Shown: positions 4,413-25,538 of the stretch, piece after piece
Position numbering within the stretch: position 1 is the stretch's first letter
Layout: every line of letters starts with the position of its first letter
From: a virus
DNA length: 25,538 nt
IMG/VR virus record: IMGVR_UViG_3300032046_000197
Location: 1-25,538 of that record
Direction: 5' to 3' (one strand)
The notes under the pieces: generated by a model
Databases searched by the model: none
The model's input: only the letters and a program-made list of their open reading frames with translations
Told to the model about the DNA's origin: nothing
Program-made: the position numbers and the translations under genes

Positions 4413-4427
4413 TTATACTTGTTTACT

Positions 4428-4434
4428 ATAAATA
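4428..4434 (-). promoter_or_regulatory. TATTTAT box upstream of baseplate gene
   Basis: The coding strand reads TATTTAT, ending 15 nt before the ATG at 4412. It is one of nine such boxes found before gene starts in this window and is proposed as a phage promoter element. Confidence 0.3.
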
Positions 4435-4448
4435 GAGAATTTTCAATT

Positions 4449-6335
4449 TTATTTTTGTGCTGGTGATGTATATTCCTTTGAATCTGGAATAAGATTAGTC
4501 CAAGCATCAGGTAGTTTATACATATATCTTGTCATTTCATCTAATATTGCAGAATTACTATTAAATGTATGATTTACATTCATTGATATCTTTCTATCAT
4601 ATCCTTGTTCGCCTGGCACTGGATTTACTTTTTCTTTATTATTTATATTTTCTGTATTAGTTTCATTTTTAATTGGTTCAGAATTTACACTTTGTTGAGT
4701 ATTAATATTTTTATTTCCAGTAAATAAATTTTCGCCAGTGCCTTTCATTTTATTTCCTAGATTACTTGTAATTTCTTTCATTGCATCTTGGACTTCCTTT
4801 GGATTATATCCCATAAAATCAACTAAATCTCTTGTGGCTTTACTAGCTTCATTTCTAGCAATTGCTAAAAGATAGTTTACATCCCTCATGATATTTTCAA
4901 CATGGGTTGCTTGTGTTTCAACAATTTCTTGCGGTGTTTTTTTCGTTAATTCTGTTTGATATTCTAAAAGAGCATTTGCTTGTTTTTGTGTTAATTCTGA
5001 TAATGCAATTTCTTTAGTTTCTCTTCCGACACCTAATGCTTCTTTTATTTTATTACTATTAAGCTCAATCTGCATTTTACCGTCTTTCATTTGAGATAAA
5101 TTAGTAATAAATTCTTGTTGTTCTGGTTTTAAATTTAATCCTCTTGATAATAATTCAGTGGCTGCGGATGTTCTTTCAGCATTTGCAATAATACCATTTG
5201 CTAATTCGCCATATGCAACGCCCATTGTTTCGGCCATCGCTTTAGCTTTTCTTAAATTAACGCCAGTAATTTCAAATCTACCTTGTTCTTCATTATATGT
5301 TGCAAGTGATTGTGTGGCTCCAATTAATGCATCTTGTAATCCTTCAACATTATTTGTTGCCATGTACATTAATTTTAATGGGTCATTAAAATCCCCAATT
5401 GCTCCGCCAATTGCTTGTAGATTTGCTGCCATATCAATTGCACCTTCTGGGTCCATAACCTTATTTGCAATTGTATAAACCGATTCTAAATTCATTCTAA
5501 ATTCGGTGGATTTTCTAACCATATCGGCCATTCCTTGAACACCGTTTTTAAATCCGAATTCATTTAACTTTGTAAGATTATCTCTTAATACTTTTACTGT
5601 ATTTTGTGCTTGTAATCCTAATGAAATTGATTTCCCTCCAACAATGTTAATTTGTTTTGCAACATCTCCCGCTCCAATACCTATTTTTTGAAATTCAGGA
5701 TACATCTCAATCATTTGTTGTAATGTTCCAACATATGCTGAGGCGCTTTCTCCGGCTTTATACCATGAATCAGCATTCATAGTAAGGAATTTTCCTGTAT
5801 TTTCTACCAATGATTTAGCAGCGTTTGCTAAATCCGCAAATCCTATTCCAATTCTTAATAGTGGTGGATTAGCTTCTGTAAGTTCTTCCCTGACATCTTT
5901 TGAAAATTGTCCTGTTAATCCAGCTTGTTTGTTAATAATACCAAGTAATTCCGTTTGTTGTTCATATGCAAAAAGTAATTGACTAGCGCCAGCATTTAAT
6001 AAAGATAAAGCTATTTCCCCAGCACTTTTAAATTTTCCTGTACTATCAACTAATCCACCAATAACTTCTTGCATTTTTTTATACTCTGAAGTAATTCCTG
6101 GCATTGCTCCCTTTTGTTCTTGAGTTCCTGCTATTTCGGCTAAGAATCCAACAACACCACCAATAGGGTTTTGTGTATTGGATTTATTAAAATGTTGAAC
6201 AATTATTAAACTTTCATTAGACGTTGGTCCTGGCTCAGGAGGAATAGCATTTGATAATGCTAATTTAAACGCATTATTTGCCTCATCAATACTTCTAGCT
6301 CCTCTTAAAAAATCTCTTACATTTGGTCTTGCCAT
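4449..6335 (-). CDS. Tail tape measure protein (gp29-like by position)
   Basis: The 628-residue protein is mostly helical, rich in Ala, Leu, Asn and Gln, and ends in a polar Asn-rich stretch (about 545-590) followed by a short conserved-looking tail with HTFNSNSAILDEMTR. It lies directly after the chaperone pair and before a baseplate gene, which is the usual tape measure position in contractile phages. T4 gp29 is 590 residues, so the length fits. Tape measure proteins fill the tail tube, fix its length and are ejected with the DNA. The start ATG at 6335 gives MARPNVRDFLRGARSI; it has no Shine-Dalgarno sequence and begins 11 nt after the stop of the 47-residue gene. No lytic or peptidase domain is apparent. 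The assignment rests on position and composition more than on a catalytic signature. Confidence 0.65.
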   Translation of the reverse strand: MARPNVRDFLRGARSIDEANNAFKLALSNAIPPEPGPTSNESLIIVQHFNKSNTQNPIGGVVGFLAEIAGTQEQKGAMPGITSEYKKMQEVIGGLVDSTGKFKSAGEIALSLLNAGASQLLFAYEQQTELLGIINKQAGLTGQFSKDVREELTEANPPLLRIGIGFADLANAAKSLVENTGKFLTMNADSWYKAGESASAYVGTLQQMIEMYPEFQKIGIGAGDVAKQINIVGGKSISLGLQAQNTVKVLRDNLTKLNEFGFKNGVQGMADMVRKSTEFRMNLESVYTIANKVMDPEGAIDMAANLQAIGGAIGDFNDPLKLMYMATNNVEGLQDALIGATQSLATYNEEQGRFEITGVNLRKAKAMAETMGVAYGELANGIIANAERTSAATELLSRGLNLKPEQQEFITNLSQMKDGKMQIELNSNKIKEALGVGRETKEIALSELTQKQANALLEYQTELTKKTPQEIVETQATHVENIMRDVNYLLAIARNEASKATRDLVDFMGYNPKEVQDAMKEITSNLGNKMKGTGENLFTGNKNINTQQSVNSEPIKNETNTENINNKEKVNPVPGEQGYDRKISMNVNHTFNSNSAILDEMTRYMYKLPDAWTNLIPDSKEYTSPAQK

Positions 6336-6339
6336 ATTG

Positions 6340-6346
6340 ATAAATA
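6340..6346 (-). promoter_or_regulatory. TATTTAT box upstream of tape measure gene
   Basis: TATTTAT on the coding strand ends only 4 nt before the tape measure ATG. If it acts as a -10 element, the transcript would have almost no leader. Confidence 0.25.
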
Positions 6347-6490
6347 TTAAGCAGGTGTATTTTCTAACCCGTATATATAATTCACATAATATCTTCTAAT
6401 AGAAATAGGCATTAATAGAATATCCCTATATGCAAATCCTCTTTTAATTAAAAATAAAATTTCATCTAACTGTCCTTTCTTATAATCCAT
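6347..6490 (-). CDS. Small second-frame tail assembly chaperone segment (47 aa)
   Basis: This 47-residue reading frame begins MDYKKGQLDEILFLIKRG and ends GLENTPA. It starts inside the last codons of the 249-residue chaperone gene, overlapping it by 11 nt in the +1 frame, and stops 11 nt before the tape measure ATG. The sequence looks structured, with an amphipathic helix, then YRDILLMPISIRRYYVN, resembling the C-terminal part of T4-type hub assembly proteins. Two overlapping frames before the tape measure recall lambda G/GT and P2 E/E', where a frameshift makes a longer chaperone. Here the small frame has its own ATG (6490), so translational coupling is the simpler explanation. No good Shine-Dalgarno sequence precedes it. 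Confidence 0.6.
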   Translation of the reverse strand: MDYKKGQLDEILFLIKRGFAYRDILLMPISIRRYYVNYIYGLENTPA

Positions 6491-7229
6491 AGAAAGGGCG
6501 AAAAAATTCTACCCCGAACCCAATCTCAACTTGAATGGTGTCTCCTGACGGGGTTTTTACTTCTCTTTTTAAATCAATTCCTGGTTTGTTCTCTCTAGCG
6601 TATTTTCTAAAATCTTGAGAATCCTTTATTGGTAATTTTTCAACAAAATGATGAATATTCATCATATCTCTATTACCTTCTATTGATTTAATCATCATTT
6701 CAAGGCGTTTAGTAACAATTGGAGCAACTCCAATACCATTCCAACTTTTTTCAATTTCCTCAAGTGTTTTTTCTTGCTTCTTTGTTAAAAAATTAAATGT
6801 AATTTTAACTTTAGATTTTTCCATTGTATATGGAAATTCTCCGTTAGAATCGGCAATAAGTTTAAATTCTTTAAATGAAATTTCACTTAAATCAAATGAT
6901 TCAGTAAATTCCTTACTAGTTTTTGGGTCAATGAGGAAGAATTTATATTCAGGTCCCCATGCGGTACTTCTTAAAAATATTAAAACAGCGTGTCTATCCT
7001 CATCTGCCATGTCTTCGACACTAAAATCCTTGTCTAATATTTTTCTTTTTAATAATTCATCAATAACTGTGTTATTTTGAATTAAATTTTGTGCAGATAA
7101 TATATTTTCATCTGTAGCGTCTAAATATGAAACTCTTAATGATTTCTTTTTATTTGCATATTGTATACCCATTGAAGGTAATTCAACCACATCATATTGT
7201 ATGGTTGGGTCAATTTTAAATTCTTCCAT
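6480..7229 (-). CDS. Tail assembly / baseplate hub assembly chaperone (gp26-like)
   Basis: The 249-residue protein has the layout of T4 gp26-type hub assembly proteins. An N-terminal LPSMGIQY is followed by a region listing TDENILSAQNLIQNNTVIDE, then a segment with RSTAWGPEYKF, and a C-terminal GFGVEFFRPFYGL. The family helps assemble the baseplate hub or handles the tape measure protein and is not usually part of the finished virion. It lies between tube and tape measure, where long-tailed phages keep their tail assembly chaperones. It starts after a strong terminator, so it is probably transcribed from its own promoter at a lower level than the tube gene; no TATTTAT box is seen upstream. 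The stop codon lies within the start of the overlapping 47-residue gene. Confidence 0.55.
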   Translation of the reverse strand: MEEFKIDPTIQYDVVELPSMGIQYANKKKSLRVSYLDATDENILSAQNLIQNNTVIDELLKRKILDKDFSVEDMADEDRHAVLIFLRSTAWGPEYKFFLIDPKTSKEFTESFDLSEISFKEFKLIADSNGEFPYTMEKSKVKITFNFLTKKQEKTLEEIEKSWNGIGVAPIVTKRLEMMIKSIEGNRDMMNIHHFVEKLPIKDSQDFRKYARENKPGIDLKREVKTPSGDTIQVEIGFGVEFFRPFYGL

Positions 7230-11269: not shown

Positions 11270-12501
11270 TATAAATAAAGAACGCTGATTGTCGAGCCTG
11301 ATGCTGGTATTGCTGTAAGTATAAATTCCTTTATATCGGTAATATTATAATCAAATACTTCATCTTTAACTTGTTTATCAATATCTAAACATATTAAATT
11401 CTTAATTGGTTTAATTGTTTGATAAACTTGTGATTGTCCACTACAACTAAAAGATTCAGTGAAAACATTTAATTCTTTTCCAGACTCATCTGTAAATTTT
11501 TGGTCTTTACTTTTAAAATATGTAATTAAAACCACGTCATTTTGAGATAATCCGCTAGCAAATGTAATTCTTGATGTTGTTGCAACATGATAATAATCGG
11601 TGCCAAGTTCTTGTACAATATTATTTACAGTAACTAAGATTAAAACATCCATTACTTCCCCAACATTAAAAATTGTCTGACCACTAATTGCTGTAAATTG
11701 ACTAACAGTTAACTCTATTCCTACATCAACATATTTTTTATTATAGTTATTTGACTGAATAAACTCGGTCATTAGTAATAATCTATTTATTGCTGGTTTA
11801 ACTTCAAACTCTTCATCATCAATTAATATTCCTAGCATTGTAAATGTATAATTTTGAATATAAAACCTTCTACCATCCATTGTATCCATTGGCGTGGCAT
11901 CGGTAATTGTGTCTAAAATAATTGGAATATAACTACCTTTAATTGTTGTATATGATTGACGAGATGTAAACTTTTGTAAAACTATTTTATTAAATTCATT
12001 TACGTCCCTAAATTTTGTACAAATAATACTTACATCAAATGTTAAATCAATTGCAACTGGTTGCGGAATTTTATAGATATCCACTCCAACTTGTGTCCCG
12101 TTCCATGTCGGAACTGAAGCATAAAAAATTTGTCTTCTATCTGGTATTGTTCTTTGTAAAGATGGATTAGTTCCGGGTTGTCCTTCAGGTTTTCTTACTA
12201 CAACAATAAATGGTAATTTTTGGTTACCATCCTCATCCGCAAATTCCCAGTTATTAGAAAATTCACCCCATCTTTGGATTGTTAATAATCTTTTATATAT
12301 TGGTATTTGTTCACCATCCGAGATAATTTTAAAATTTTCTCTTACAAATTCAAGCATACCCATATCAAGGTCATCATGAAAAATTGGGTCAGGTAAAAAG
12401 GTATCAGATTTAGTTATTCTTTCTAATAATTCTTTTCTTCTCTCGGTTAGTTCACTTTGAGGATATACATTAATATTATTTTTTCTTTTTGGAATTGACA
12501 T
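11266..12501 (-). CDS. Tail sheath terminator / stabiliser (T4 gp15-like) with C-terminal extension
   Basis: In this 411-residue protein, residues about 130-250 resemble T4 gp15, which caps the tail and joins it to the neck. They show IDLTFDVSIICTKFRDVNEF, then YIPIILDTI, then GRRFYIQNYTFTMLGILIDD, matching the gp15 pattern of a sampled-strand core followed by an RR-containing strand. T4 gp15 has 272 residues. The extra C-terminal part has VNNIVQELGTDYYHV and ITFASGLSQNDVVLITY, a beta-sandwich pattern common in phage accessory and fibre proteins. The gene lies just before the sheath gene in transcription order, as gene 15 does relative to 18 in T4. Its ATG overlaps the stop of the preceding gene (TAATG), so translation is probably coupled. 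Confidence 0.6.
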   Translation of the reverse strand: MSIPKRKNNINVYPQSELTERRKELLERITKSDTFLPDPIFHDDLDMGMLEFVRENFKIISDGEQIPIYKRLLTIQRWGEFSNNWEFADEDGNQKLPFIVVVRKPEGQPGTNPSLQRTIPDRRQIFYASVPTWNGTQVGVDIYKIPQPVAIDLTFDVSIICTKFRDVNEFNKIVLQKFTSRQSYTTIKGSYIPIILDTITDATPMDTMDGRRFYIQNYTFTMLGILIDDEEFEVKPAINRLLLMTEFIQSNNYNKKYVDVGIELTVSQFTAISGQTIFNVGEVMDVLILVTVNNIVQELGTDYYHVATTSRITFASGLSQNDVVLITYFKSKDQKFTDESGKELNVFTESFSCSGQSQVYQTIKPIKNLICLDIDKQVKDEVFDYNITDIKEFILTAIPASGSTISVLYLY

Positions 12502-13124
12502 TATTTTCCGTTTTTAACGTGATTATATAGAATTTCAGCAATATCAACCTCATCGGTAACTCCAGCTTCTTTTATTTTTTGAATATACATTTCAATTAAT
12601 TTTTTAAAATCATCTAATGTTGCATGTTCATATTGTTTTGTTATCGGCATCCTAGAAAATAATAATTTTTTTGATGTATCATCATTAAATTTATTTTCAA
12701 CTTCTCTTATTTTTCTAATTGAAAATTCATCAGCAACATTTTCTAAATACATCATAAATTTAGCACAATCATCAATATTAATATCAGCATTATACATTTC
12801 ATTCATTTTTTCAATTCCATATTTTTTAAATTGATATTGATGTGCTGTTTCATGAAATAAAACATAAAGAAATGTTTTAAAATTATAATGTTTTAGAATT
12901 AAAGTATTAAGAACTAATCTATCAGCTAATGATACTCCCGCAGCCGGATAACTAAAAGTATCAAAACTAATTCTTTCACATCCTGATTTCTCTATAAAAT
13001 TTTTTAAATATGGTAACATATATACTGAATCGGGATATGTTTCTGCAATTGTAGCAAAAAATTCGCCAAGCCCTTCTTGCTCAGTTATTAATTTAAGTTG
13101 TTTTTCGTTTATAAGCACTTTCAT
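12501..13124 (-). CDS. HExxH zinc metallopeptidase-like protein
   Basis: With the ATG at 13124 the product is 207 residues and starts MKVLINEKQLKLITEQ. This start is preferred to a further upstream one because a GAGGAG lies 6 nt before it and the upstream gene stops 1 nt before it. HETAH at 91-95 is a zinc-peptidase motif. YLENVADEFSIRKI at 126-139 supplies a likely third ligand, E128, matching the E-x-x-A-N-x-F-A pattern of the ImmA/IrrE-like group. No signal peptide is evident. Its place between neck-like and sheath-terminator genes suggests a role in virion assembly, ejection or maturation, but its substrate is unknown. Confidence 0.65.
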   Translation of the reverse strand: MKVLINEKQLKLITEQEGLGEFFATIAETYPDSVYMLPYLKNFIEKSGCERISFDTFSYPAAGVSLADRLVLNTLILKHYNFKTFLYVLFHETAHQYQFKKYGIEKMNEMYNADINIDDCAKFMMYLENVADEFSIRKIREVENKFNDDTSKKLLFSRMPITKQYEHATLDDFKKLIEMYIQKIKEAGVTDEVDIAEILYNHVKNGK

Positions 13125-13125
13125 A

Positions 13126-13638
13126 TTAAACTCCTCTAAATTCTGTTTCTTGTGCAGGAACGCAAACAACAGTTCTATAATATGGTTTAAAACCAAACAT
13201 ACTATGTTTATTGTCAGATATTACTTTACCTTCGTTAACAACAGTATAATATCTTATTCTTTCTTCAGTTTCGGCATAACCAATATAATCCCCATATTTT
13301 ATATCTATCTTTAATTCTTCTAAATGTTTTATATAAACATAAAACATTAAATTTCCTGGCTCCAAATACTTTGCTAATCCTTGTTTATATGTTTTATTAT
13401 CTGGTTCATTTATTCTAACCATGGCATTAAATTCTACCGGCGATAAAAATTTAATTCCATCTTTTCCAACCTCACTATAAACGTCATCTGTATCAGTTTT
13501 TTGTCTATCAACACGGAAAAGAACTAATTTCATATTAATATCCCCATGTAAAAATTCCATTCCCATACTAATATTTAAATCATAATCAGTTTCGGAAAAA
13601 AATTTAGATAATCTCGTTATAGGCAGTTTGTTCTTCAT
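13126..13638 (-). CDS. Neck / head-completion-like structural protein
   Basis: The 170-residue protein has an aspartate- and tyrosine-rich beta pattern: DDVYSEVGKDGIKFLSPVEF, then a segment with YLEPGNLMFYVYIKHLEEL, then IKYGDYIGYAETEERIRYYT. This fits a small beta-barrel head-closure or neck protein, and its place before the gp15-like and sheath genes supports that. A match to T4 gp14 is possible but not shown by clear motifs. Its ATG at 13638 diverges from the helicase gene across a 49-bp gap, and its stop is 1 nt from the next start, so it heads a tightly coupled three-gene operon. Confidence 0.45.
   Translation of the reverse strand: MKNKLPITRLSKFFSETDYDLNISMGMEFLHGDINMKLVLFRVDRQKTDTDDVYSEVGKDGIKFLSPVEFNAMVRINEPDNKTYKQGLAKYLEPGNLMFYVYIKHLEELKIDIKYGDYIGYAETEERIRYYTVVNEGKVISDNKHSMFGFKPYYRTVVCVPAQETEFRGV
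13131..13136 (-). promoter_or_regulatory. Shine-Dalgarno site deciding the metallopeptidase start
   Basis: GAGGAG lies 6 nt before the ATG at 13124. It is unusual here because most starts in the window lack such a site, and it also encodes the end of the upstream gene. Confidence 0.5.
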
Positions 13639-13642
13639 GTAT

Positions 13643-13649
13643 ATAAATA
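13643..13649 (-). promoter_or_regulatory. TATTTAT box upstream of neck-like gene
   Basis: TATTTAT on the minus strand ends 4 nt before the ATG at 13638, in the divergent gap with the helicase gene. Confidence 0.25.
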
Positions 13650-13652
13650 GTT

Positions 13653-13659
13653 TATTTAT
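13653..13659 (+). promoter_or_regulatory. TATTTAT box upstream of helicase gene
   Basis: TATTTAT on the plus strand ends 28 nt before the ATG at 13688. The two boxes in this divergent gap are separate copies, one on each strand. Confidence 0.3.
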
Positions 13660-13687
13660 TGATTCAATTTTCGTATATTTAAATTAT

Positions 13688-15439
13688 ATGCCAGGTAAAA
13701 TTCCAGAAATAGAAGCAAGGAATATCTTATTAAACTATAATGGGTTTAATAATCAGTTATTAGATTGGAAAAGAAGATTTACAACAATCAAAAATTTCCA
13801 ACTTACTCGCACGCAATCAGAGTACGTTTTAAAACATCATGAAACTGTGCCAAGGGTTGCAAGAAAATATATTAATATCGATACAAACTTTGGCGAAAAG
13901 TTAATGGAAACCAAACATCTTGTTAAACCAGTTGAAAAAATTTGGTGTGAAAAATTACTGTGTGAAAGTGATAAAGCATATCATATATGGGGTAAAGTTA
14001 CTGAAAATGAGAAACTTTATACTATGTGGATACCAAAAACTTCAATTATTCAAGAAGAAAAAAAATTAAATCGCGAGGTGGATTATTCGCCTTATGATAT
14101 TAGACCTCCTATGACTCACCAGAAGGTCGCCATTGAGAGATTACTAGCAAATGATAAATATATACTCGCTGATGACATGGGACTCGGAAAAACGACCAGT
14201 GCGGTTATTGCGTCGCTAGAAAGTAATGTTAAGAAAGTTTTAATCGTTTGCACAGCGACTTTGAAAAAAAATTGGGAAAAAGAAATACAAATTTATACTA
14301 ATAAAAGAATATTAATTGTTGAAGGTAGAAAATGGGGGTCAACATTTGACTATTATATTATAAATTATGATATATTAAAAAATTACCATACAAATGATAA
14401 GTCTGAAGAAAGCGAAGCGTATAAATTAATTGTAAACGAAAAATTTGACTTAGCAATTATAGATGAAGCTCATAACGTTTCTAATACCGAAGCTAAGCGC
14501 ACCAAGTTAATTAACGACATTATTAAAACCATTCCTAAAGTATGGTTATTGACAGGAACTCCAATGACATCAAGACCAATTAATTATTATAACTTATTAA
14601 GAATTGTTGGTTCTCCATTAACATTAAATTGGCAAGGATATGTTAAAAGATATTGTGGCGGATTCCAATTCAGAGTTGAAGGTAGAAAAATATGGAGTAC
14701 TAAAGGCGCAACCAATCTTGATGAATTAAGAGAAAGAACAAAAAATATTGTTTTAAGAAGATTAAAAACAGATGTATTAGACTTACCAGATAAAATCATT
14801 ACTCCAATTTTTTTAGATTTGAAAAGTACCTACTATGATGAGGAACTTGAGGAATTTATGAGAATAACTAAAGATAGCAAGAAAAAAGAATCTATTAGTA
14901 TTACATTAAATCGTCTTATGAAAGTAAGACAGGTAATTGCATATGAAAAAGTTCCATATACTTGTGAATTAATTGATAAATTTATTGAACAAGATAAAAA
15001 GGTAATTGTTTTTACGAATTTTACCATGAGTCTTGATATGATACATGAAAAATATAAAAAAAATTCAGTAGTTCTTGATGGCAGAATGTCTCAAGATAAA
15101 AGAGAAATTAGTATTAATAAATTCCAAAACGATAGTAAAATAAAGGTTTTTATTGCAAATATTAAAGCCGGTGGTGTCGGAATTAATCTAACATCAGCTG
15201 AGGGTGTTATAATGAATGACTTATCATTTGTTCCTTCGGACCACTCTCAAGCCGAAGATAGAGCAATGAGAATTGGGCAAAAAAATTCAGTTCTTGTTTA
15301 TTATCCTGTATTTGAAAATACTATTGAACAGATTGTTTATAATATTCTTCAAAGAAAGAAGGCAATAATCGACCAAGTTCTAGGGGATGGTGAATACTCT
15401 GAAGGATTTGCAGACGCTTTACTTAAAGAGATTCTTTAA
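13688..15439 (+). CDS. SNF2-family (superfamily 2) DNA helicase/translocase
   Basis: With the ATG at 13688 the product has 583 residues; a start 20 codons upstream would overlap the divergent gene. An N-terminal region (1-140) precedes the two-lobed ATPase: Q-motif-like RPPMTHQKVAIERLL, Walker A DDMGLGKTT (162-170), DEAH (259-262), TGTP (289-292), then lobe 2 with VFTNF, GGVGINLTSAEG (495-506) and SQAEDRAMRIGQ (520-531), the Q-x-x-x-R-x-x-R-x-G-Q signature of SNF2 proteins. Such proteins move on double-stranded DNA to remodel forks or displace proteins; in phages they probably aid replication, recombination or repair, as T4 UvsW does, though UvsW is a different subfamily. It converges with a small gene that it overlaps by 21 nt. 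Confidence 0.9.
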   Translation: MPGKIPEIEARNILLNYNGFNNQLLDWKRRFTTIKNFQLTRTQSEYVLKHHETVPRVARKYINIDTNFGEKLMETKHLVKPVEKIWCEKLLCESDKAYHIWGKVTENEKLYTMWIPKTSIIQEEKKLNREVDYSPYDIRPPMTHQKVAIERLLANDKYILADDMGLGKTTSAVIASLESNVKKVLIVCTATLKKNWEKEIQIYTNKRILIVEGRKWGSTFDYYIINYDILKNYHTNDKSEESEAYKLIVNEKFDLAIIDEAHNVSNTEAKRTKLINDIIKTIPKVWLLTGTPMTSRPINYYNLLRIVGSPLTLNWQGYVKRYCGGFQFRVEGRKIWSTKGATNLDELRERTKNIVLRRLKTDVLDLPDKIITPIFLDLKSTYYDEELEEFMRITKDSKKKESISITLNRLMKVRQVIAYEKVPYTCELIDKFIEQDKKVIVFTNFTMSLDMIHEKYKKNSVVLDGRMSQDKREISINKFQNDSKIKVFIANIKAGGVGINLTSAEGVIMNDLSFVPSDHSQAEDRAMRIGQKNSVLVYYPVFENTIEQIVYNILQRKKAIIDQVLGDGEYSEGFADALLKEIL

Positions 15440-16791: not shown

Positions 16792-19707
16792 TTAAATGTT
16801 GGTTACGTGAAATGCGTAGTCATTATTATCATTTTCAATAATTTCATCCTCATTATCAATAGAACTTTTTTCTTTTAAAGAAAGAACTTTTCTATTATGT
16901 TCCACCCATTTTTGGTCTACTAATTCTAATGTACCGGGAGGATACATATAAAATGGGTCACGTTGAACTCTATTCCAAAATTCAACTTCTCCTTCAGATA
17001 ATGTCATAACATCGTCATAGTTATCTTGTCCGTCTTCTTTTATTGGATGTCCGCTATCTAGCTCGCATTGAAGTTTTGTAAAATACGGCCTTTTTGCGGG
17101 GTCTTCAATCAATATTTCATCACGAATATCAGGATGAAAAACAACTAACAATGGTTCTACCCGGCTATTAAATGTACTTAAATATTTTGCAACGTTATAA
17201 TCACCCACCATGTTAGGGTTATTTTGTATTTCAGATTCAGGAATCATATAACACATAATTTTAACAGAAGTATCATGTGGCGGTATTTTTCCATTAGTTA
17301 ATTTATATTCTTTTAATTGTTTTGTTGTCCATTTTTCTTTAAATGAAACAACTTTTTTAACATCACCATCACCTTTTTTGTCACCATTATTAACATAATA
17401 AATTGTTTCACCTAAAACCGCTTTATAATTGTTTTGGATAATTAACTCCATATGAGCTTGACGTGACATTAATGCTCCTGACTTTGTTGTCTTTTTAATA
17501 TGTTTCTTATAATCTTCTACCGATTGTTTTACACGAGCTTTATTTGCCATCTTAACTAATGGTATCTCTTTATTATATATCATTTCAATATATTTGTAAT
17601 ATAATTCAAGAAATTGTAATCCATCTCCGTTTAAAAGATGTTTTAATCCTTCATCCAAGAACTCGACAACATATTGTTGTAATTTTTTAGATTTAATGGT
17701 ATTACCGGTTAATTTTATTTTTTCTTTACCTTTTTTAATTATTTTAATAATATAATTCTTCCTTGAAAGATTAATACTAGCCGGTGCTTCGTAGTCAATA
17801 TCTAATCCCATCGTACCTCTCATGAATATATCATTAAACTCAGCTGTATCAGCCTTAGCCCCCTTATATTCTTTTCCTGCTTCAACCAAAGAGTTTAATC
17901 CTTTACCAATATAGGTATGAGATTCAATATCATCAGGAAGTGAAAAATTAACACCGTCAGTATCCATAACTAATGGAACATATCCTTTCTTTACAAAGAA
18001 CATAATCATCATACGAAGACATTGCCTACCTCCGCAAGTAGTCATTTCACCTTTATTCATGTCTCCCCATGGAAATATTTGCGGAGCGGATAATGAACCG
18101 AAATAAGCATTAATAAAAATCTTTAACGGTAATTGTTTTCTATCGTGCATCTCAGATAAAACTGGGTCAGTTTTTTCATAAAACTCTTTAAGACGTTTAC
18201 TTACAAGACGAATAGCAAGGAAATAAATTAACATAGATTTTTGTACATCCATAACATCACAATCTGGAAACACATCATTTTCAATCATGAATGATGGATA
18301 TAACGATGAAAAGTCAAATTTAATAATTCCTTTAGAAAATCCAACCCTTAATAACCTTGATAATCCCCCTACAAATTTTCTTTTAGTATCTTTTAGTGGT
18401 ATTGCTAGTTTATTCTCATATGACCATGCTAACATTATAATTTTCCACAATGTAGCTGTTCCCATTGTGGCAACTCTTTCATATGTTGTAGGAACTAATT
18501 TAGAAAGTAAGAATGTAGATTGACTAAATGAGTCGTCAACCACCATGGTTTCATATAAATCATCATCAAGATATTGTTCTACAATTTTACTACCATTCCA
18601 TGTTTCATATCGGCCAGGAAATCTTTCTAAAAGATTTTCAGTTCCAGGGTCTCCAACCTTTTTATATCTACCTGTTTGAGGATTTAAATAATAATCTTCA
18701 TTTGCAAGATATATTTTAGAAATATATGCCCCATCAACATAAACTCGATTTGGCTTTTCTTTTTCCAAAAATTGAGTAATATATTTTAATCCCCAAGATT
18801 TTATTTCTGAATTAATTGCTTGCGCTCTACGAACCGCATGTGCAACATCAATTATATTAAATCCCCATATAACATATTGGTTATATGATTCAACTTCATT
18901 TGCTAGTTTTAATGTTCCATCTTTTCTCTTAATACCAGTAGAGGTAAAAATTTTTGTGAATTCTTGGACATCTATTCCCAAAATTTCGGCTCTTTTTAGG
19001 ATAAACGGCCAGTCAAATGATGCTGAGTTATATCCACCAATTATTGTAGGTTTTAATTTTTTTATAATATTAAAAAATTCTTCAATACACTCCTCTTCTC
19101 CATTTTCACCAAGAGCACTGATTGTTTTTTGTAAACCACGATTATCTTTAACACCAATAAGAATAATCTCATCAGTTTCAGGATTTAAACCAGTGGTTTC
19201 AATATCAAACACAAATCGGTACACATCCTGATAATCCTCAAGCCCTTTAAATAGACGTTTCTTTTTTTGAACCAAATATTGTTCTGCTGGCGTTAAAACA
19301 GTAAAGTTTTTTTTATATTTTTCACTCCATGGGTCTAATCCACCCTCTTTAAAAAAACTAATAAGATGAGTATAACTTTTTATTGATTTAACCATGAAAG
19401 GCATTCCTTCCATAAGTCTCTTATTGCCATGTGTTTCTAATTTTTCAATTAGAATACCATGTTCACTCATCTTTCTTCTCTGTTCTTCCTTATCACCTTT
19501 ATAAAAATTTAAAGATGTAAGGTCACCTACCCATAAAAACGGTGTAAATGTATCCGATTTTATTATTTTACCCTTTTCAGGGTCCTGTATGATTTTGAAA
19601 ATTTTATTAGTTCGGTAATCGTACTCGATACCAACAATGTATTGCTCTGGGTCTGCACCATTTAAGAAGCTTTCTATAACTTCTTGGGAAATTACTTCTT
19701 TTACCAT
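16792..19707 (-). CDS. gp43: Family B DNA polymerase with 3'-5' exonuclease (T4 gp43-like)
   Basis: This 971-residue replicative polymerase (T4 gp43 has 898) has every core motif in order. Exonuclease motifs: FDIETTG (167-173, D168 and E170), GYNSASFDWP (225-234, D232) and YLDDD (379-383). Polymerase motifs: A, FDFSSLYPS (464-472); B, KIFINAYFG (529-537); C, MDTDG (581-585, with D582 and D584 as metal ligands). The exonuclease and polymerase sites therefore look intact. The A-to-B spacing of about 64 residues is shorter than in T4/RB69 polymerases, suggesting shorter fingers. The C-terminal tail is acidic and Asn-rich, as in sliding-clamp-binding tails, though no clear clamp motif is seen. 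No TATTTAT box precedes the start, which fits a different, perhaps earlier, expression class. Confidence 0.95.
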   Translation of the reverse strand: MVKEVISQEVIESFLNGADPEQYIVGIEYDYRTNKIFKIIQDPEKGKIIKSDTFTPFLWVGDLTSLNFYKGDKEEQRRKMSEHGILIEKLETHGNKRLMEGMPFMVKSIKSYTHLISFFKEGGLDPWSEKYKKNFTVLTPAEQYLVQKKKRLFKGLEDYQDVYRFVFDIETTGLNPETDEIILIGVKDNRGLQKTISALGENGEEECIEEFFNIIKKLKPTIIGGYNSASFDWPFILKRAEILGIDVQEFTKIFTSTGIKRKDGTLKLANEVESYNQYVIWGFNIIDVAHAVRRAQAINSEIKSWGLKYITQFLEKEKPNRVYVDGAYISKIYLANEDYYLNPQTGRYKKVGDPGTENLLERFPGRYETWNGSKIVEQYLDDDLYETMVVDDSFSQSTFLLSKLVPTTYERVATMGTATLWKIIMLAWSYENKLAIPLKDTKRKFVGGLSRLLRVGFSKGIIKFDFSSLYPSFMIENDVFPDCDVMDVQKSMLIYFLAIRLVSKRLKEFYEKTDPVLSEMHDRKQLPLKIFINAYFGSLSAPQIFPWGDMNKGEMTTCGGRQCLRMMIMFFVKKGYVPLVMDTDGVNFSLPDDIESHTYIGKGLNSLVEAGKEYKGAKADTAEFNDIFMRGTMGLDIDYEAPASINLSRKNYIIKIIKKGKEKIKLTGNTIKSKKLQQYVVEFLDEGLKHLLNGDGLQFLELYYKYIEMIYNKEIPLVKMANKARVKQSVEDYKKHIKKTTKSGALMSRQAHMELIIQNNYKAVLGETIYYVNNGDKKGDGDVKKVVSFKEKWTTKQLKEYKLTNGKIPPHDTSVKIMCYMIPESEIQNNPNMVGDYNVAKYLSTFNSRVEPLLVVFHPDIRDEILIEDPAKRPYFTKLQCELDSGHPIKEDGQDNYDDVMTLSEGEVEFWNRVQRDPFYMYPPGTLELVDQKWVEHNRKVLSLKEKSSIDNEDEIIENDNNDYAFHVTNI

Positions 19708-19793: not shown

Positions 19794-20162
19794 TTAAAAA
19801 ATAGTGATGAATAATTTTTCTTTTACAGGTAAAATTAACTTAGTTGTCGGGACTAAATTAGTATCTAAAAATTGAACAGTAACTTTACCCTCATATTTAC
19901 CAATTTTTGCTGTCTGAGCTTCAGTAAATCTATGTACAATATAATATTCATCAGTAGTTTGATTATATTTTTTATCTCTAGTTGTGATTGAACAAGGAGA
20001 ACTTAATATTTCAGCCTCTTCTGTTTCCATATTAAACATATCAAATGTTATATCAGAATTTTCAAGAAAATCATTAAATGATGATTTATCATTTTTTCCA
20101 TCATCTATTAGCCTTAGTTTTAATATCGGCTCCGATGCTCCTTGTCTTATAAAAAATTCCAT
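19794..20162 (-). CDS. Small beta-rich protein, possible receptor-binding adaptor domain
   Basis: The 122-residue protein opens MEFFIRQGASEPILKLRLID and closes VPTTKLILPVKEKLFITIF, with ITFDMFNMETEEAE and GKYEGKVTVQFLDT between. This strand pattern resembles the N-terminal immunoglobulin-like domain of BppU-type adaptors that attach receptor-binding proteins to a baseplate. The match is by pattern only. The gene is the last of the glycosyltransferase operon, 23 nt after the 1400-residue gene, with its own TATTTAT box. It could be an acceptor or partner of the glycan enzymes, or simply a tail protein. Confidence 0.4.
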   Translation of the reverse strand: MEFFIRQGASEPILKLRLIDDGKNDKSSFNDFLENSDITFDMFNMETEEAEILSSPCSITTRDKKYNQTTDEYYIVHRFTEAQTAKIGKYEGKVTVQFLDTNLVPTTKLILPVKEKLFITIF

Positions 20163-20185: not shown

Positions 20186-23100
20186 TTAGGCATTTGGATT
20201 CTCTCTTAATTTAGTTAATTCTTCTAATGGATATTCGCAAGCATTTACGTCCCAATTATATATAGTACTATCAACGCCAACGTGTAAAACGCCGCCAGGT
20301 ACACATAACACAAAATTATTATCATTATTTTTTCCTGGCGAATTTTTGTTCCACCAACTTAATTCCCAATCTAATCCAGCATTCCATGATGAATTATATG
20401 ATTCACCATAATGAGCATCTAAATGAAGTGGAAATAATGATTTTAAATCTCTTACTCTCATAAACATATGTCCAGCTCTTAATGAGCGTTTTTCACATAA
20501 ATTTCCAAATCGTGTATTTCTCCAACCAAGTTCTTCATGCTCTTTACTCATATATCCAGTTGTAAAGAAAATTTCTTGATTTTCATTTAAAATATTACAA
20601 TATGTAGATAATGGTTCATTAAAAAGGTTATCTTGGTCAGTAAATTGTATAAAATCATATTCATCAATATTCACATCTTCTAACATTTGTAATAATGCTC
20701 CCCTTTGTCCCATATTAAAGTCAGAATTATACACCGTAAACCTATCATCAATATTTTCGTTAATAACTTTTAATATTTCTTCCTTCATTTCAGGATTTGA
20801 GTTCTCAACAATATAAACATCATTTATATAATTTTCATTTTTAATGTCTTTTAACGAATTTATTACATTTTTAATATGATGAGGTCTATTAAATGATGTT
20901 AATAATGTAATTATCTTTGGTTTTTTAATTAAATTCGGTAAAACGTTTGTTTCAAATTCATTAACTATCTTTTTCCATGAATAATTTGTTCTCACAAAAT
21001 CTGAAAATTCTTTTAAGTATCCAGTTTCAATCGTTTTATCATAACTTTCATATAACGCCATCATGCAATTAGTTAATGTGTTAATTTCCGGCTCAGCCCA
21101 TTCTCCTAACATCCATGGGTGATTTTTTACAGGAACTAATTTATAAGGAATTTCATAATATTTTCCTTTTATTAACTCGCATACACCCGGCTCAGATGTT
21201 GTTATTACTGGTAATCCACAAGCCATGGCTTCAAGCACTGTCATTCCAAAAGTATCAGCTCTTGATGGATAAACATACACATGACATTCCTTATATAATT
21301 CTAAAACTTTATTATGCCCTTCATTACTAACATGCCAGAATATATTTTTATATTTATCAACGTATTCTTTTACCCTTTCTCCATCATAGAAGACCATCCC
21401 ATCATTTGATTTCAAATGTAATTCAACATTCTCATTTGTTCCATATAACTTGGTAAACGCTTCTAACAATTGAAAAATTCCCTTTCTGTCTGAACATTCG
21501 CCAACATATAAGAATTTAAACTTTTCTCCTTTAATTCTAGGGGTGTATTTAAACTTTTCTGGGTCAATTCCATGTGGAAATACGTATATCGGTTTTTTAA
21601 CTCCTAATTTAATCATTCTTTCTTTTGAACGATTTGATGGGGTTAATATATAATCAGCCAGATTACAATTATTTGCGAAGTTTGGAATACCTCCTGTTGT
21701 ATCAACGCCAGTATATATTACTTTATTATTAAATTCAGATAATTCCGATATCATGTCAGGATATGAAAACATGATACCTAAATCATGATTTTTTGGTTTT
21801 GCAAGAGAAATATGAATTAATGGATTATCTGTTTCAGTTGCTCCGATAATAGATTTACATGAAATATCGGTTTCATTTAAATTTTCCAAGATTCTTTGAG
21901 ATAAAATACCCATAGAAGCATAATCATCATACTTTGCTAACCATGTTAATTTATTTTTTTTAGGAAACGTTTTTATTTCTTTTCCATCTGACGTAATTAT
22001 ATTTACTTTTTTCCCTATCGTTAAAGAAGTAATTAAATCTGATATTTCCATCTCTGGTGTACATTCAAATAAATTTATTTTTTTTAAAATTTCTTTATCA
22101 TACCTAATTTTTTCAAAATTTTCTCCTGATTTATTAATTGCAATGTATATAAATTTATCATCATTTATAATTTCTTTAAGACGGTCATATTCTAAATCAT
22201 TTAATAATGTAATTGTATCACATTCTTTATATTTTTTGAATTTTAATTTATTTTCTTCCATCGATTTTTTAGTTTCATCTTTATCTAATAAACTAAACGA
22301 AATTCCCTGAAGATGTACTATTGGAAAATCAATGTATTGAGATTCCCCTAAATCATCCTTATACGCATAGTATCCTAATTCATATCCATTTAGTTCCACT
22401 CTATAAGATAGTTCCATATCATCAACATAACCCTTGTCAAAACCTTCATTTAGTAACCCTATTTTATTTAAAACAGATTTTCGAGCAATAAAACAACATC
22501 CTAAAATAAATTCATTCGATTTTACAGGTCCAATAAGTCCATATTTATCATTTTCTAATAATGGTAATAACAAATCCTCCCAATTACTAAATAACCCAGC
22601 GTCACTATTCATACAAAGTATAAACTCGTTTTTTGCTAATTTAAAACATTCATTTACAGCTTTAACAAATCCAATTCCTTCTGGCACTTTATATATAACA
22701 GCATTAGAGATATTAAATGGATTATCTTTTATGAATTTTTCTAATATTTTATTATCTTGGTCTGAAGAACCGTTAGAATACAATATTAATTCATTAATTG
22801 CAGTAGAACTTGATAATGTTTTCTCCAACATTTCCATCGTCAACTTACTATTTCCATAAACAGGAACAACTAAGCTTAATGGCGGATATTTTGATAGTTC
22901 TTTTTGTGTTTTTTTTGTTTTTCCGTACTCTAATACGCCAATTCCAGCAAATCCACCTTTATGCTTTGCTGCGTTATAAAAATATTCATTTATTTCTTTA
23001 TCAATTAATTTTGTGTGTATAAACTCTTTTGATTCGTATTTTTGAGATAAATCCGTCCATAATGTAGACACAAAACAATTCCATTCAGCGTGATATTCAC

Positions 23101-24388
23101 TTGCAATTACGTCATGAAAGGCTACGATTGAATTTTCATGTAAAAATTCTTTATAAACATTAAAATCATTTTTTGACCCCTCATAACTATGGTCACCATC
23201 TATAAAAAGAAAATCAACTTTTCTACCATTTAATAGTTCTCTAACTCTACCGATTAAATAATTGTCCTGTGAATTACCATTTATTGCAAAAAATTGTTTA
23301 TTATGTAAATTTGCTTGTTCTAATGCGTCTGAAATAACATAAACTCTCTCCTCAAATCCATGACCGCCATGTGGGCCAGTAGGGTAATCAATACTAAAAA
23401 TAATTTCAGAACTAGGAAGTTCAAACCATCTTGCTAATGTTCCTCCTCTTGCTGTTCCAATTTCCATTATAATTTTTGGATTATGATTTGCAACTTCTAG
23501 TTGTAAATTTTCAATCTCTAAAGGAATTTGCATCGATTGCGTTTTTCTATACGCCATCATCGGCCTCAAATATTGTCTGTCAAATGTATTTTTAAAAAAT
23601 ATTTCATGTCTATAAAATTCCATTGGAAAAAAGTCTGGTATTGAATCATGTTTTTTCATTTTAATTTCTGACCGGTCAAATAAATCCCTACCATTATACA
23701 TGTTATCTTTTATTATATTAATATCAGTATATTCAGGAAGATTAAATTCTTGATGTGAAAAAGATATTATTTTCTCTTTAATTTCTTCAGGAGAATTAAA
23801 AAACGAAAAATGATATCCACCATCTTCTATATGTTTACAATTATATCTATATTCTCGCACCTGAGAAAAATTAGTAAGAGTTCTTAATGTTTTATCGTTA
23901 ATAGCAGTAGTTCCAAACCATTCAATTAACACTTCACATATTGGAGAATAATAAAAAGTTTTAAACATAAATGATGTTGCATCCATGGTTTGATTTTTTG
24001 TTTTATCCCATGCTTCGTCAAATTTTTCAACTTTAGGAAACTCATCCACATCGGATAATAAAATTAATGTGTTTTCATCTGATAACTCTTTTATTTTATC
24101 ATACATGTAATCTCTTTGCTTCTTTTCTAAATAAAATTTATCGTTTTTTATTTCTTTTAAATCTGAGTCAATTGGTTCATAAATAACATAATGTATTTTA
24201 TCTCTATATTTTTCAATTTGTGGAAAATATTTTAATAAAGTTAAATTCTTTTTTATTCCAGTAAATGTAGTATTTCCTTCGCATATTATAAAATAATCGA
24301 CATGAGAATATAAATAATCTAATCTCATTTTTAACATTTCCATTTCTCCTGAAAATAATATTGCATCAATAACTTTGTATTCTTTCAT
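20186..24388 (-). CDS. Five-domain glycan-synthesis protein: GT17, methyltransferase-like, GT2, GT4, GT2
   Basis: This 1400-residue single chain reads as five enzyme domains. Residues 1-265 resemble glycosyltransferase family 17 (LFSGEMEMLKMRLDYLY, CEGNTTFTGIKKNLTLL, DVDE at 113-116 as the metal motif). Residues about 285-490 look like a Rossmann methyltransferase of the CmcI/Methyltransf_24 type (EIGTARGGT 309-317, FIDGDH 395-400, HD 425-426). Residues about 503-700 are a GT-A family 2 enzyme (LSLVVPVYG, NSDA, YVDDMELSYR). Residues about 810-1155 are a GT-B family 4 enzyme (LYVGECSDRKG 960-970, PSRADTFGMTVLEAMACGLP 1041-1060). Residues about 1158-1400 are a second GT-A enzyme (ITLLTSFNRP, FTDQDN 1249-1254). 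Key residues are present in each, so all may be active. The start overlaps the upstream methyltransferase stop (TAATG). A role in decorating virion proteins or cell-surface glycans is inference. Confidence 0.85.
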   Translation of the reverse strand: MKEYKVIDAILFSGEMEMLKMRLDYLYSHVDYFIICEGNTTFTGIKKNLTLLKYFPQIEKYRDKIHYVIYEPIDSDLKEIKNDKFYLEKKQRDYMYDKIKELSDENTLILLSDVDEFPKVEKFDEAWDKTKNQTMDATSFMFKTFYYSPICEVLIEWFGTTAINDKTLRTLTNFSQVREYRYNCKHIEDGGYHFSFFNSPEEIKEKIISFSHQEFNLPEYTDINIIKDNMYNGRDLFDRSEIKMKKHDSIPDFFPMEFYRHEIFFKNTFDRQYLRPMMAYRKTQSMQIPLEIENLQLEVANHNPKIIMEIGTARGGTLARWFELPSSEIIFSIDYPTGPHGGHGFEERVYVISDALEQANLHNKQFFAINGNSQDNYLIGRVRELLNGRKVDFLFIDGDHSYEGSKNDFNVYKEFLHENSIVAFHDVIASEYHAEWNCFVSTLWTDLSQKYESKEFIHTKLIDKEINEYFYNAAKHKGGFAGIGVLEYGKTKKTQKELSKYPPLSLVVPVYGNSKLTMEMLEKTLSSSTAINELILYSNGSSDQDNKILEKFIKDNPFNISNAVIYKVPEGIGFVKAVNECFKLAKNEFILCMNSDAGLFSNWEDLLLPLLENDKYGLIGPVKSNEFILGCCFIARKSVLNKIGLLNEGFDKGYVDDMELSYRVELNGYELGYYAYKDDLGESQYIDFPIVHLQGISFSLLDKDETKKSMEENKLKFKKYKECDTITLLNDLEYDRLKEIINDDKFIYIAINKSGENFEKIRYDKEILKKINLFECTPEMEISDLITSLTIGKKVNIITSDGKEIKTFPKKNKLTWLAKYDDYASMGILSQRILENLNETDISCKSIIGATETDNPLIHISLAKPKNHDLGIMFSYPDMISELSEFNNKVIYTGVDTTGGIPNFANNCNLADYILTPSNRSKERMIKLGVKKPIYVFPHGIDPEKFKYTPRIKGEKFKFLYVGECSDRKGIFQLLEAFTKLYGTNENVELHLKSNDGMVFYDGERVKEYVDKYKNIFWHVSNEGHNKVLELYKECHVYVYPSRADTFGMTVLEAMACGLPVITTSEPGVCELIKGKYYEIPYKLVPVKNHPWMLGEWAEPEINTLTNCMMALYESYDKTIETGYLKEFSDFVRTNYSWKKIVNEFETNVLPNLIKKPKIITLLTSFNRPHHIKNVINSLKDIKNENYINDVYIVENSNPEMKEEILKVINENIDDRFTVYNSDFNMGQRGALLQMLEDVNIDEYDFIQFTDQDNLFNEPLSTYCNILNENQEIFFTTGYMSKEHEELGWRNTRFGNLCEKRSLRAGHMFMRVRDLKSLFPLHLDAHYGESYNSSWNAGLDWELSWWNKNSPGKNNDNNFVLCVPGGVLHVGVDSTIYNWDVNACEYPLEELTKLRENPNA

Positions 24389-24996
24389 TATTTTTTGTTT
24401 TTAATTTTTATAAAAAGTTCTGGTTCTCTTATATTCATTGGATAATATTGAGAAACAATAAAATTATTTTTTTCTAAATATTGAACACAAGAATCTCCTC
24501 TATCATCAATATCTAATTTTAATTCAGAAATATTACAATGAATTTCCGAATCAACATTAGGATATGGTACAATTATTAAAATATATCCAGATGGTTTACA
24601 TACTCTTGAAAATTCTTTTAATGCTTTAATTGGATTTAAAATATGTTCCAAAGCATGACTACACCATACTACATCAAAAGTATTGTTATTAAATGGAAGG
24701 TCTGTTGCTGATGATTTTATAAAAACATCTTTATCAACAATTTTTTTTGCTACATTTAATTTATCTTGATTTATATCAACCCCAATTACATTAAATATTC
24801 CTTTAGATATTAAATGTTTAATTCCTACACCAGCTCCACATCCTACATCTATAACGGAACTTTCTTTATTTAATAAAGGTAAAAGAAATATATCTAAAGA
24901 ATTGATTTGACCCTTTTTCCAACTTTCGTTTTCATTTTCAAAAGACGCAGCACGTATTTGTACAATTTCGTAATCCTCATAATTATCAAATTTCAT
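24388..24996 (-). CDS. Class I SAM-dependent methyltransferase
   Basis: The 202-residue protein has the Methyltransf_11 pattern. Motif I is VIDVGCGAG (48-56), the acidic ribose-binding end of strand 2 is VIGVDI (70-75), the motif before strand 4 is ATDLPF (97-102), and the post-motif is SHALEH (113-118). The substrate is not evident; sugars are likely because of the company it keeps. Its ATG lies 1 nt after the upstream methyltransferase stop, and its own stop overlaps the ATG of the 1400-residue glycosyltransferase protein, so the three genes form a coupled operon. Confidence 0.85.
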   Translation of the reverse strand: MKFDNYEDYEIVQIRAASFENENESWKKGQINSLDIFLLPLLNKESSVIDVGCGAGVGIKHLISKGIFNVIGVDINQDKLNVAKKIVDKDVFIKSSATDLPFNNNTFDVVWCSHALEHILNPIKALKEFSRVCKPSGYILIIVPYPNVDSEIHCNISELKLDIDDRGDSCVQYLEKNNFIVSQYYPMNIREPELFIKIKNKK

Positions 24997-24997
24997 G

Positions 24998-25538
24998 TTA
25001 TCTTTGTTTTCGTTTTAATGCCCAATCATATCCATCTTTAGAATATAATATTAATTCAAAATTATTTTTCTTACAAAACTCATTAACGGCTTCCATAACG
25101 CCAAAATCAGAATATTTAAAATAATCATGCCCGCACATAAATCCTGTCTTTTTTAATTTAGGAAGATAAATTTTTAAATCCGATTTTGCACAATCATATA
25201 AATGGCAAGCGTCTAAGTATATAAAATCAAAATACCCATCTATAAAATTTTTAACCACATTATATGAAAAGTCTTTTAATACAAATACTTTATTATTTTT
25301 TATTTCATTTGAAAAATTATTTAAAACCATTTCATACATCTCTTCACTTGAATATGCTGTACAAAGATTTAACCTATTTCCATACATTGGTGTTTTTCCA
25401 TTTTCATCTGAACCAACAATCCAAGGGTCAACTAAATATAATTTTTCAGGATTTAAAATATCCAAAATTTGTTTACTAAAGTCCCCTTGATATGTTCCTA
25501 GTTCGATACAAACTGGATTTGGTTGAATATCTTTTAAT
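24998..25538 (-). CDS. Class I methyltransferase, Methyltransf_24-like (5' end beyond window)
   Basis: The frame is open to the right edge, so the start is not in the window; 179 residues are visible. An apparent start at 25465 would be a TTG and would remove motif I, so it is unlikely. VCIELGTYQGDFS near the visible N-terminus is the SAM-binding motif I. LYLVDPWI follows as the second strand, and FDFIYLDACHLYDCAKSDLK and GHDYFKYSDFGV match the acidic and histidine motifs of the Methyltransf_24 group. A similar fold lies inside the 1400-residue protein of the same operon. The substrate is unknown, probably a sugar or other glycan precursor. Confidence 0.8.
   Translation of the reverse strand, partial: LKDIQPNPVCIELGTYQGDFSKQILDILNPEKLYLVDPWIVGSDENGKTPMYGNRLNLCTAYSSEEMYEMVLNNFSNEIKNNKVFVLKDFSYNVVKNFIDGYFDFIYLDACHLYDCAKSDLKIYLPKLKKTGFMCGHDYFKYSDFGVMEAVNEFCKKNNFELILYSKDGYDWALKRKQR

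Follow-up and report, generated by a model that had tools for sequence, protein, structure and literature searches.

A five-domain glycosyltransferase-methyltransferase chain with exchangeable domains in phages and its probable role in fibre glycosylation

We analysed a 25.5-kb linear IMG/VR fragment of a tailed phage that is represented in metagenomes only (IMGVR_UViG_3300032046_000197, positions 1 to 25,538; hereafter the window), in which a preliminary description had recognized four glycosyltransferases (GTs) and a methyltransferase fused in one phage protein of 1400 residues. That observation is confirmed: the chain is a single frame on the minus strand, with an ATG start and no internal stop codon (Table 1), and its full domain order recurs in independent contigs, so that it is neither a chance product nor an assembly error. 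Sequence comparison of its relatives indicates that phages gain, lose, duplicate and swap the domains of the chain, GT17 above all. With regard to function, the genome context appears to favour a virion fibre as the target, and we consider it probable that the chain acts in the cytosol and assembles a short, at least partly O-methylated glycan stepwise on a surface fibre of the phage itself, most likely on the serines of proline-free, collagen-like Gly-X-Ser repeats.

All five domains exceeded curated Pfam scores, in the order originally described. The N-terminal domain matched Glyco_transf_17 (PF04724, aa 4-238, 1.5e-25, 90.5 bits against a curated score of 26), and the second matched both Methyltransf_24 (PF13578, aa 309-427, 1.4e-10, 42.5 bits against 26.3) and RMNT_CmcI (PF04989, aa 282-428, 24.3 against 23.2). 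Matches over gathering score to Glycos_transf_2 (PF00535, aa 505-620, 4e-17, 63.1 bits for the whole protein) and Glycos_transf_1 (PF00534, aa 950-1074, 2.2e-24, 86.3 bits) followed, and the fifth domain, of GT-A type, was seen only when the C-terminus was searched alone (PF00535, about aa 1164-1294, 6.6e-6, 26.6 bits against a cut-off of 23.3). Between GT2 and GT4 lies a conserved linker of about 90 aa, absent from the earlier domain list, for which Pfam gave no match above cut-off (aa 720-811). Metal-binding or catalytic motifs, previously said to be kept in each domain, are retained in the methyltransferase (SAM and metal motifs EIGTARGGT and FIDGDHxY, FIDGDHSY in the window chain), GT2 (NSDA), GT4 (DxFGMTxLEA) and the C-terminal GT-A domain (FTDQDN and GLDWE); in the GT17 site, LSxVDEFP, conservation does not extend to the first Asp of DVD.

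AlphaFold2 models of the two halves of the chain (mean pLDDT 67.7 and 72.5) showed the domains folding as separate units. The GT4 model (about aa 809-1157) gave Z scores of 24-28, up to 28.4, against BshA, chlorovirus 3oy2 and SdgB-like enzymes, and GT2 with its linker (aa 497-794) gave about 16-18 against polypeptide N-acetylgalactosamine (GalNAc) transferases, WrtF and heparosan synthase, although modelled fold likeness of this kind cannot name a sugar, donor or acceptor. Confidence was low for aa 190-305 and the final 80 residues, and the GT17 and last-domain assignments therefore rest on sequence profiles. No membrane segment was found in the chain, which points to a cytosolic protein.

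Scanning viral contigs with a three-sequence alignment retrieved 18 contigs with relatives of the chain, besides the window and a nearly identical 5-kb strain (L003), and domain order was read by per-domain BLAST. Two separately assembled IMG/VR contigs carry the full five-domain order in single open reading frames (L004, 1378 aa; L010, 1382 aa), and the same order is found in three copies cut by contig ends (L009, L011 and L015); per-domain identity of same-order relatives was 50-75%. L016 (1598 aa) has an additional methyltransferase-like part ahead of GT4, and L008 (2287 aa) has nine catalytic domains: FkbM-type methyltransferase, Methyltransf_24 (MT24), GT17, MT24, GT2, GT2, MT24-like, GT4 and GT2. 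Reduced forms comprise GT2-GT4-GT2 (L006, L012 and L014), GT4-GT2, in some cases preceded by an additional N-terminal part (L002, L005, L007 and L013) and the last domain alone, as a free-standing gene of 248 aa (L019-L021); a separate gene of L002 begins at the linker/GT4 junction. A further scan with the N-terminal part gave no new five-domain contigs, and named phages gave only partial single-domain matches, about 25-30% identical, with none to the C-terminal domain. A bacterial origin of the fusion was rejected, as a scan of 84,980 genomes turned up no more than fragments of GT2 or GT4, 22-31% identical.

Identity between relatives is distributed unevenly along the chain. L009 and L010 share 52-64% of amino acids in GT17 up to residue 257 and 96-100% from about aa 258, and their nucleotide identity changes sharply at the GT17 domain border. 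L004 and L016 are 34-56% identical in GT17 and 48-96% elsewhere, while L016 and L008 show the opposite pattern (80-92% in GT17, mostly 46-78% elsewhere), and L004 and L015 have zero nucleotide changes in GT17 with a synonymous divergence (dS) of about 0.66 in GT4 and the last domain. These contrasts show that catalytic domains move by recombination as units. Nonsynonymous to synonymous ratios (dN/dS, Nei-Gojobori) were 0.05-0.5 in domains with enough synonymous changes for an estimate, indicating purifying selection on the measurable domains. The multi-step, methylating glycan assembly put forward in the preliminary description fits the conserved order, this selection and the nine-domain and split forms; the activity, its substrate, its sugars and the order of action are predictions from sequence. 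The chain probably forms only part of the pathway, since a GT9-like gene lies upstream in relatives and two methyltransferase genes precede the chain in the window. Two further genes of relatives were observed. L004 carries, two genes downstream of its five-domain chain, an N-acetylglucosamine glycosyltransferase (PF11397, 9.8e-71, 13944-15212) of a family better known from eukaryotes, and L002 encodes a second multi-domain chain of 1268 aa (3172-6978), with GT9-like and GT4 parts and one more of GT-B-like type, that adjoins glycine-rich fibre genes and the GT4-GT2 gene.

The relatives' contigs tie the chain to fibre genes. Of the 18 family contigs 14 had collagen-type repeats, compared with 2 among the 47 sister contigs from the window's group; the raw p value is 5e-9, and it becomes about 6e-5 when lineages are collapsed by hand. 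The contigs are related fragments, and such statistics are a guide. In 13-14 of 18 cases a contig with the chain also had a PF01391 match above the curated score, and the window fragment had none. The repeats have the form (G-[LITAQ]-S)n, in which Leu, Ile, Thr or Ala mostly occupies X, and serine holds the third position in 423 of 435 triplets in the contig of L008; X and Y being almost without proline, they are not proline/hydroxyproline-rich collagen repeats. L008 belongs to the window's own group (122-aa gene 84%) and has a Gly-X-Ser fibre upstream of its nine-domain chain, and in eight loci (L006, L010, L012-L014 and L019-L021) the chain is separated from the tail sheath/tube genes by fibre genes. 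Hydroxylation of proline or lysine, the route of animals and mimivirus, was rejected, as the 2-oxoglutarate (2OG) oxygenase family PF13640 was found in just 1 of 18 family contigs, that of L006, in which two 2OG-Fe(II) oxygenase genes stand in tandem (G004, 30833-31717).

The control consisted of 37 contigs without the family on the shared tail backbone, picked by their tail-tube gene. TibC/Aah-type O-heptosyltransferases (TIGR04414) were found in 18 of these, 16 of them above the curated cut-off. Fibres accompanied the TIGR04414 gene in 11 of 18 contigs and were found in 0 of the 19 without it (Fisher p 4e-5); among control contigs of at least 20 kb the counts were 7/8 and 0/7. A count confined to 10 kb around the tail-tube gene gave fibres in 6 of 37 contigs instead of the 11 of 37 for whole contigs, a figure that is too low because the fibre gene often lies farther away. 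All six family contigs tested on the shared backbone had fibres and none had TIGR04414, so the two cassettes look like alternatives. The window chain (among the best 25 of 27 NCBIfam families) and the L008 chain did not match TIGR04414, whereas L163 and others in sister phages did, with a profile match over 200 bits as the criterion. In adhesins, TibC is known to modify serine and leave threonine unmodified (PMC4358343). Read most simply, these sequence associations mean that those of these phages with Gly-X-Ser fibres also encode a cassette for serine glycosylation, one version of which would be the chain with its GT9-like partner. The TIGR04414 genes were seen beside Gly-X-Ser fibre genes (L163, 6696-7898; L221, 2591-4879; and other control contigs), and some of them stand in tandem or are in long frames fused to GT4 domains.

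In the proposed mechanism, the glycan would be started on serine by the GT9-like transferase (51-95% identical among relatives), by the polypeptide-GalNAc-transferase-like GT2 domain, or by both. The GT17, GT4 and C-terminal GT-A domains would extend it, and the MT24/CmcI domain, together with the two flanking methyltransferase genes, would methylate its sugars. A GT17 swap may then change the glycan worn by the virion, like the antigenic classes of chlorovirus A064R mutants. More tentatively, and as a conjecture that we hold to be possible rather than probable, recombination of catalytic domains within one chain could switch the glycan on serine-rich, proline-free fibres, giving phage antigenic glycan variation, with sugars perhaps replacing hydroxyproline in fibre stability.

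Several points weigh against fibre glycosylation. The window contig ends inside the operon, before any fibre or GT9-like gene, and we infer both from relatives. The GT9-like genes beside the chain matched neither TIGR04414 nor any PDB entry, and their identity as TibC, on which a profile comparison gave no clear answer, is not supported. Four of the 18 family contigs have no collagen match (L002, L005, L015 and L017), three of which begin within the chain or close to it, and L002 carries glycine-rich fibre genes instead. The contigs are related, not independent, so the p values overstate the association. Moreover, GT2, GT4 and Methyltransf_24 domains act on lipopolysaccharides and exopolysaccharides too.

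The preliminary description had left virion proteins, DNA bases and the host surface equally open as targets, and the genome context now points to virion fibres. An effect on the host surface is unlikely: the chain would remodel the host O-antigen or capsule in infection and so block superinfection. O-antigen and exopolysaccharide loci typically encode GT2, GT4, GT9 and CmcI-type methyltransferases, and the host-recognition clusters of pelagimyophages, which also have collagen-repeat proteins, combine glycosyltransferases with tail fibre genes, the transferases being read by the authors as modifiers of the host O-chain (PMC7029224). The chain, however, has no transmembrane segment; a scan of the locus genes named no lipid-carrier transferase, flippase or polymerase; and fibre genes track glycosyltransferase cassettes, the alternative cassette being a protein-serine glycosyltransferase family. 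It is rather improbable that the substrate is another virion protein, such as the sheath, the capsid or a PA14/laminin-G-type surface protein. Such surface proteins occupy the same slot in sister phages, and in L002 the GT4-GT2 pair stands directly before the tail sheath gene with no Gly-X-Ser fibre in view, but the chain is absent from the sister phages that encode them. DNA is the substrate of some phage glycosyltransferases, as in T4, yet we regard synthesis of a glycosylated or hypermodified base as very improbable here: no base-synthesis gene was recognized in the window, the genomic link is with fibre genes, and four glycosyltransferases with a CmcI/rhamnosyl-type O-methyltransferase make up a larger set than is known for any base modification. 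A joining of separate genes by assembly error, the refutation foreseen earlier, has next to no likelihood, for although the domains exist as separate genes in other phages (L002, L006 and L019), the same five-domain frame with conserved junctions in separately assembled contigs rules it out.

Fibre glycosylation by a fused chain has partial parallels. Like the A064R/A111R type of viral protein, the chain joins at least two glycosyltransferases, with or without a methyltransferase, in one polypeptide. A064R of chlorovirus PBCV-1 (GT-GT-methyltransferase, 638 aa) builds the methylated end of the virion glycan, its activities are proven in vitro and its domain mutants define antigenic classes (PMC9614988). 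It differs in having three domains and in acting on a capsid N-glycan of a eukaryotic algal virus, whereas the present family has five to nine domains of other glycosyltransferase families in tailed phages, with a function predicted from sequence. PBCV-1 A111/114R (860 aa) joins three glycosyltransferase domains, assigned as galactosyl-, xylosyl- and fucosyltransferase (GalT-XylT-FucT), in making a virion glycan outside cellular organelles (PMC7826918); it has no methyltransferase and does not share the domain order. By analogy, these two are the closest working counterparts, without detected sequence kinship: phmmer matches in PDB included no A064R chain, and GT4 resembles a different chlorovirus glycosyltransferase, 3oy2, by fold only. 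No comparable fused chain was found in the tailed-phage records or literature searched, while chloroviruses have fused virion-glycan enzymes, and the chain is larger and more modular than the viral cases described.

Other systems share single features. TibC/Aah enzymes O-glycosylate serines of surface adhesins, and in sister phages that have Gly-X-Ser fibres their family stands in the same genomic slot, but they are single GT9-type enzymes and the window chain does not belong to that family. Mimivirus L230 likewise sugars the virus's own collagen-like proteins, although it hydroxylates and then glucosylates lysine, in contrast to the proline-free Gly-X-Ser repeats here. BclA of the Bacillus exosporium is a collagen-like glycoprotein whose oligosaccharide ends in an O-methylated sugar, anthrose; it sits on a bacterial spore, without a fused multi-domain enzyme. 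Collagen-like proteins of Gram-positive bacteria typically have Thr at the Y position. The E. coli K4 chondroitin polymerase and Pasteurella heparosan synthase, Foldseek matches to the N-terminal half, fuse two GT-A domains, but make a capsule polymer and have no methyltransferase. If fibre glycosylation is correct, the fibres of these phages are served by a recombining glycan factory, phage glycosyltransferases, which are commonly taken to modify DNA or the host surface, would be tied to virion protein glycosylation, and programmable glycan assembly in a single chain would become testable. The control contigs also place the TibC-type serine heptosyltransferase family in phages, beside collagen-like fibres.

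Table 1 Features of the window, with the domains of the chain
Feature	Positions	Strand	Basis or remark
Five-domain GT17-MT24-GT2-linker-GT4-GT2 protein, 1400 aa	20186..24388	-	Open frame, Pfam, same-order relatives
GT17 domain, aa 1-257, swapped between relatives	23618..24388	-	PF04724; swap break at L010 aa 257
Methyltransf_24/CmcI-type methyltransferase domain, aa 281-497	22898..23548	-	PF13578, PF04989; motifs EIGTARGGT and FIDGDHSY
GT2 domain, aa 498-719, polypeptide-GalNAc-transferase-like GT-A fold	22232..22897	-	PF00535; VIA-align Z about 17
Linker unit, aa 720-811, alpha/beta, after each GT2 in relatives	21956..22231	-	Conserved in relatives, model
GT4 (GT-B) domain, aa 812-1155	20924..21955	-	PF00534 2.2e-24; BshA/3oy2/SdgB-like fold, Z 24-28
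C-terminal GT2-type GT-A domain, aa 1156-1400	20186..20923	-	PF00535 6.6e-6 when cut out
Methyltransf_11 gene	24388..24996	-	Stop overlaps chain ATG (TAATG)
Methyltransf_24 gene	24998..25537	-	5' end runs off contig
Conserved 122-aa neighbour	19794..20162	-	Marks variable locus in sister phages
Family B DNA polymerase	16792..19707	-	Fixed flank of locus

The chain stands directly ahead of the 122-aa gene, which is followed by DNA polymerase B. In sister contigs this variable slot holds PA14/GLEYA, laminin-G or FKBP surface-type proteins and no chain. Shine-Dalgarno motifs preceded 8 of 133 genes of the group, below the 13 of 133 at a control offset, and this suggests a host like Bacteroidota. 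Flavobacterium and Microcystis phages are among the relatives of the tail sheath, and DNA polymerase relatives are from Salinibacter phages; a Bacteroidota host is plausible from these sequence data.

Variation was also seen at the flank of the locus. The near-identical strain has, by eye, a GIY-YIG homing endonuclease-like gene between the chain and the 122-aa gene (L003, 716-1408). The DNA polymerase B frame is 1328 aa in L055 (10446-14432) against about 965, perhaps through an intein or insertion, and in L025, L050 and L053 the polymerase gene is split or preceded by a small gene. In the window, an SNF2-type helicase (13628-15439) lies on the strand opposite to most of its neighbours, and a weak match to an SprT-like metalloprotease (12501-13196) lies beside it.

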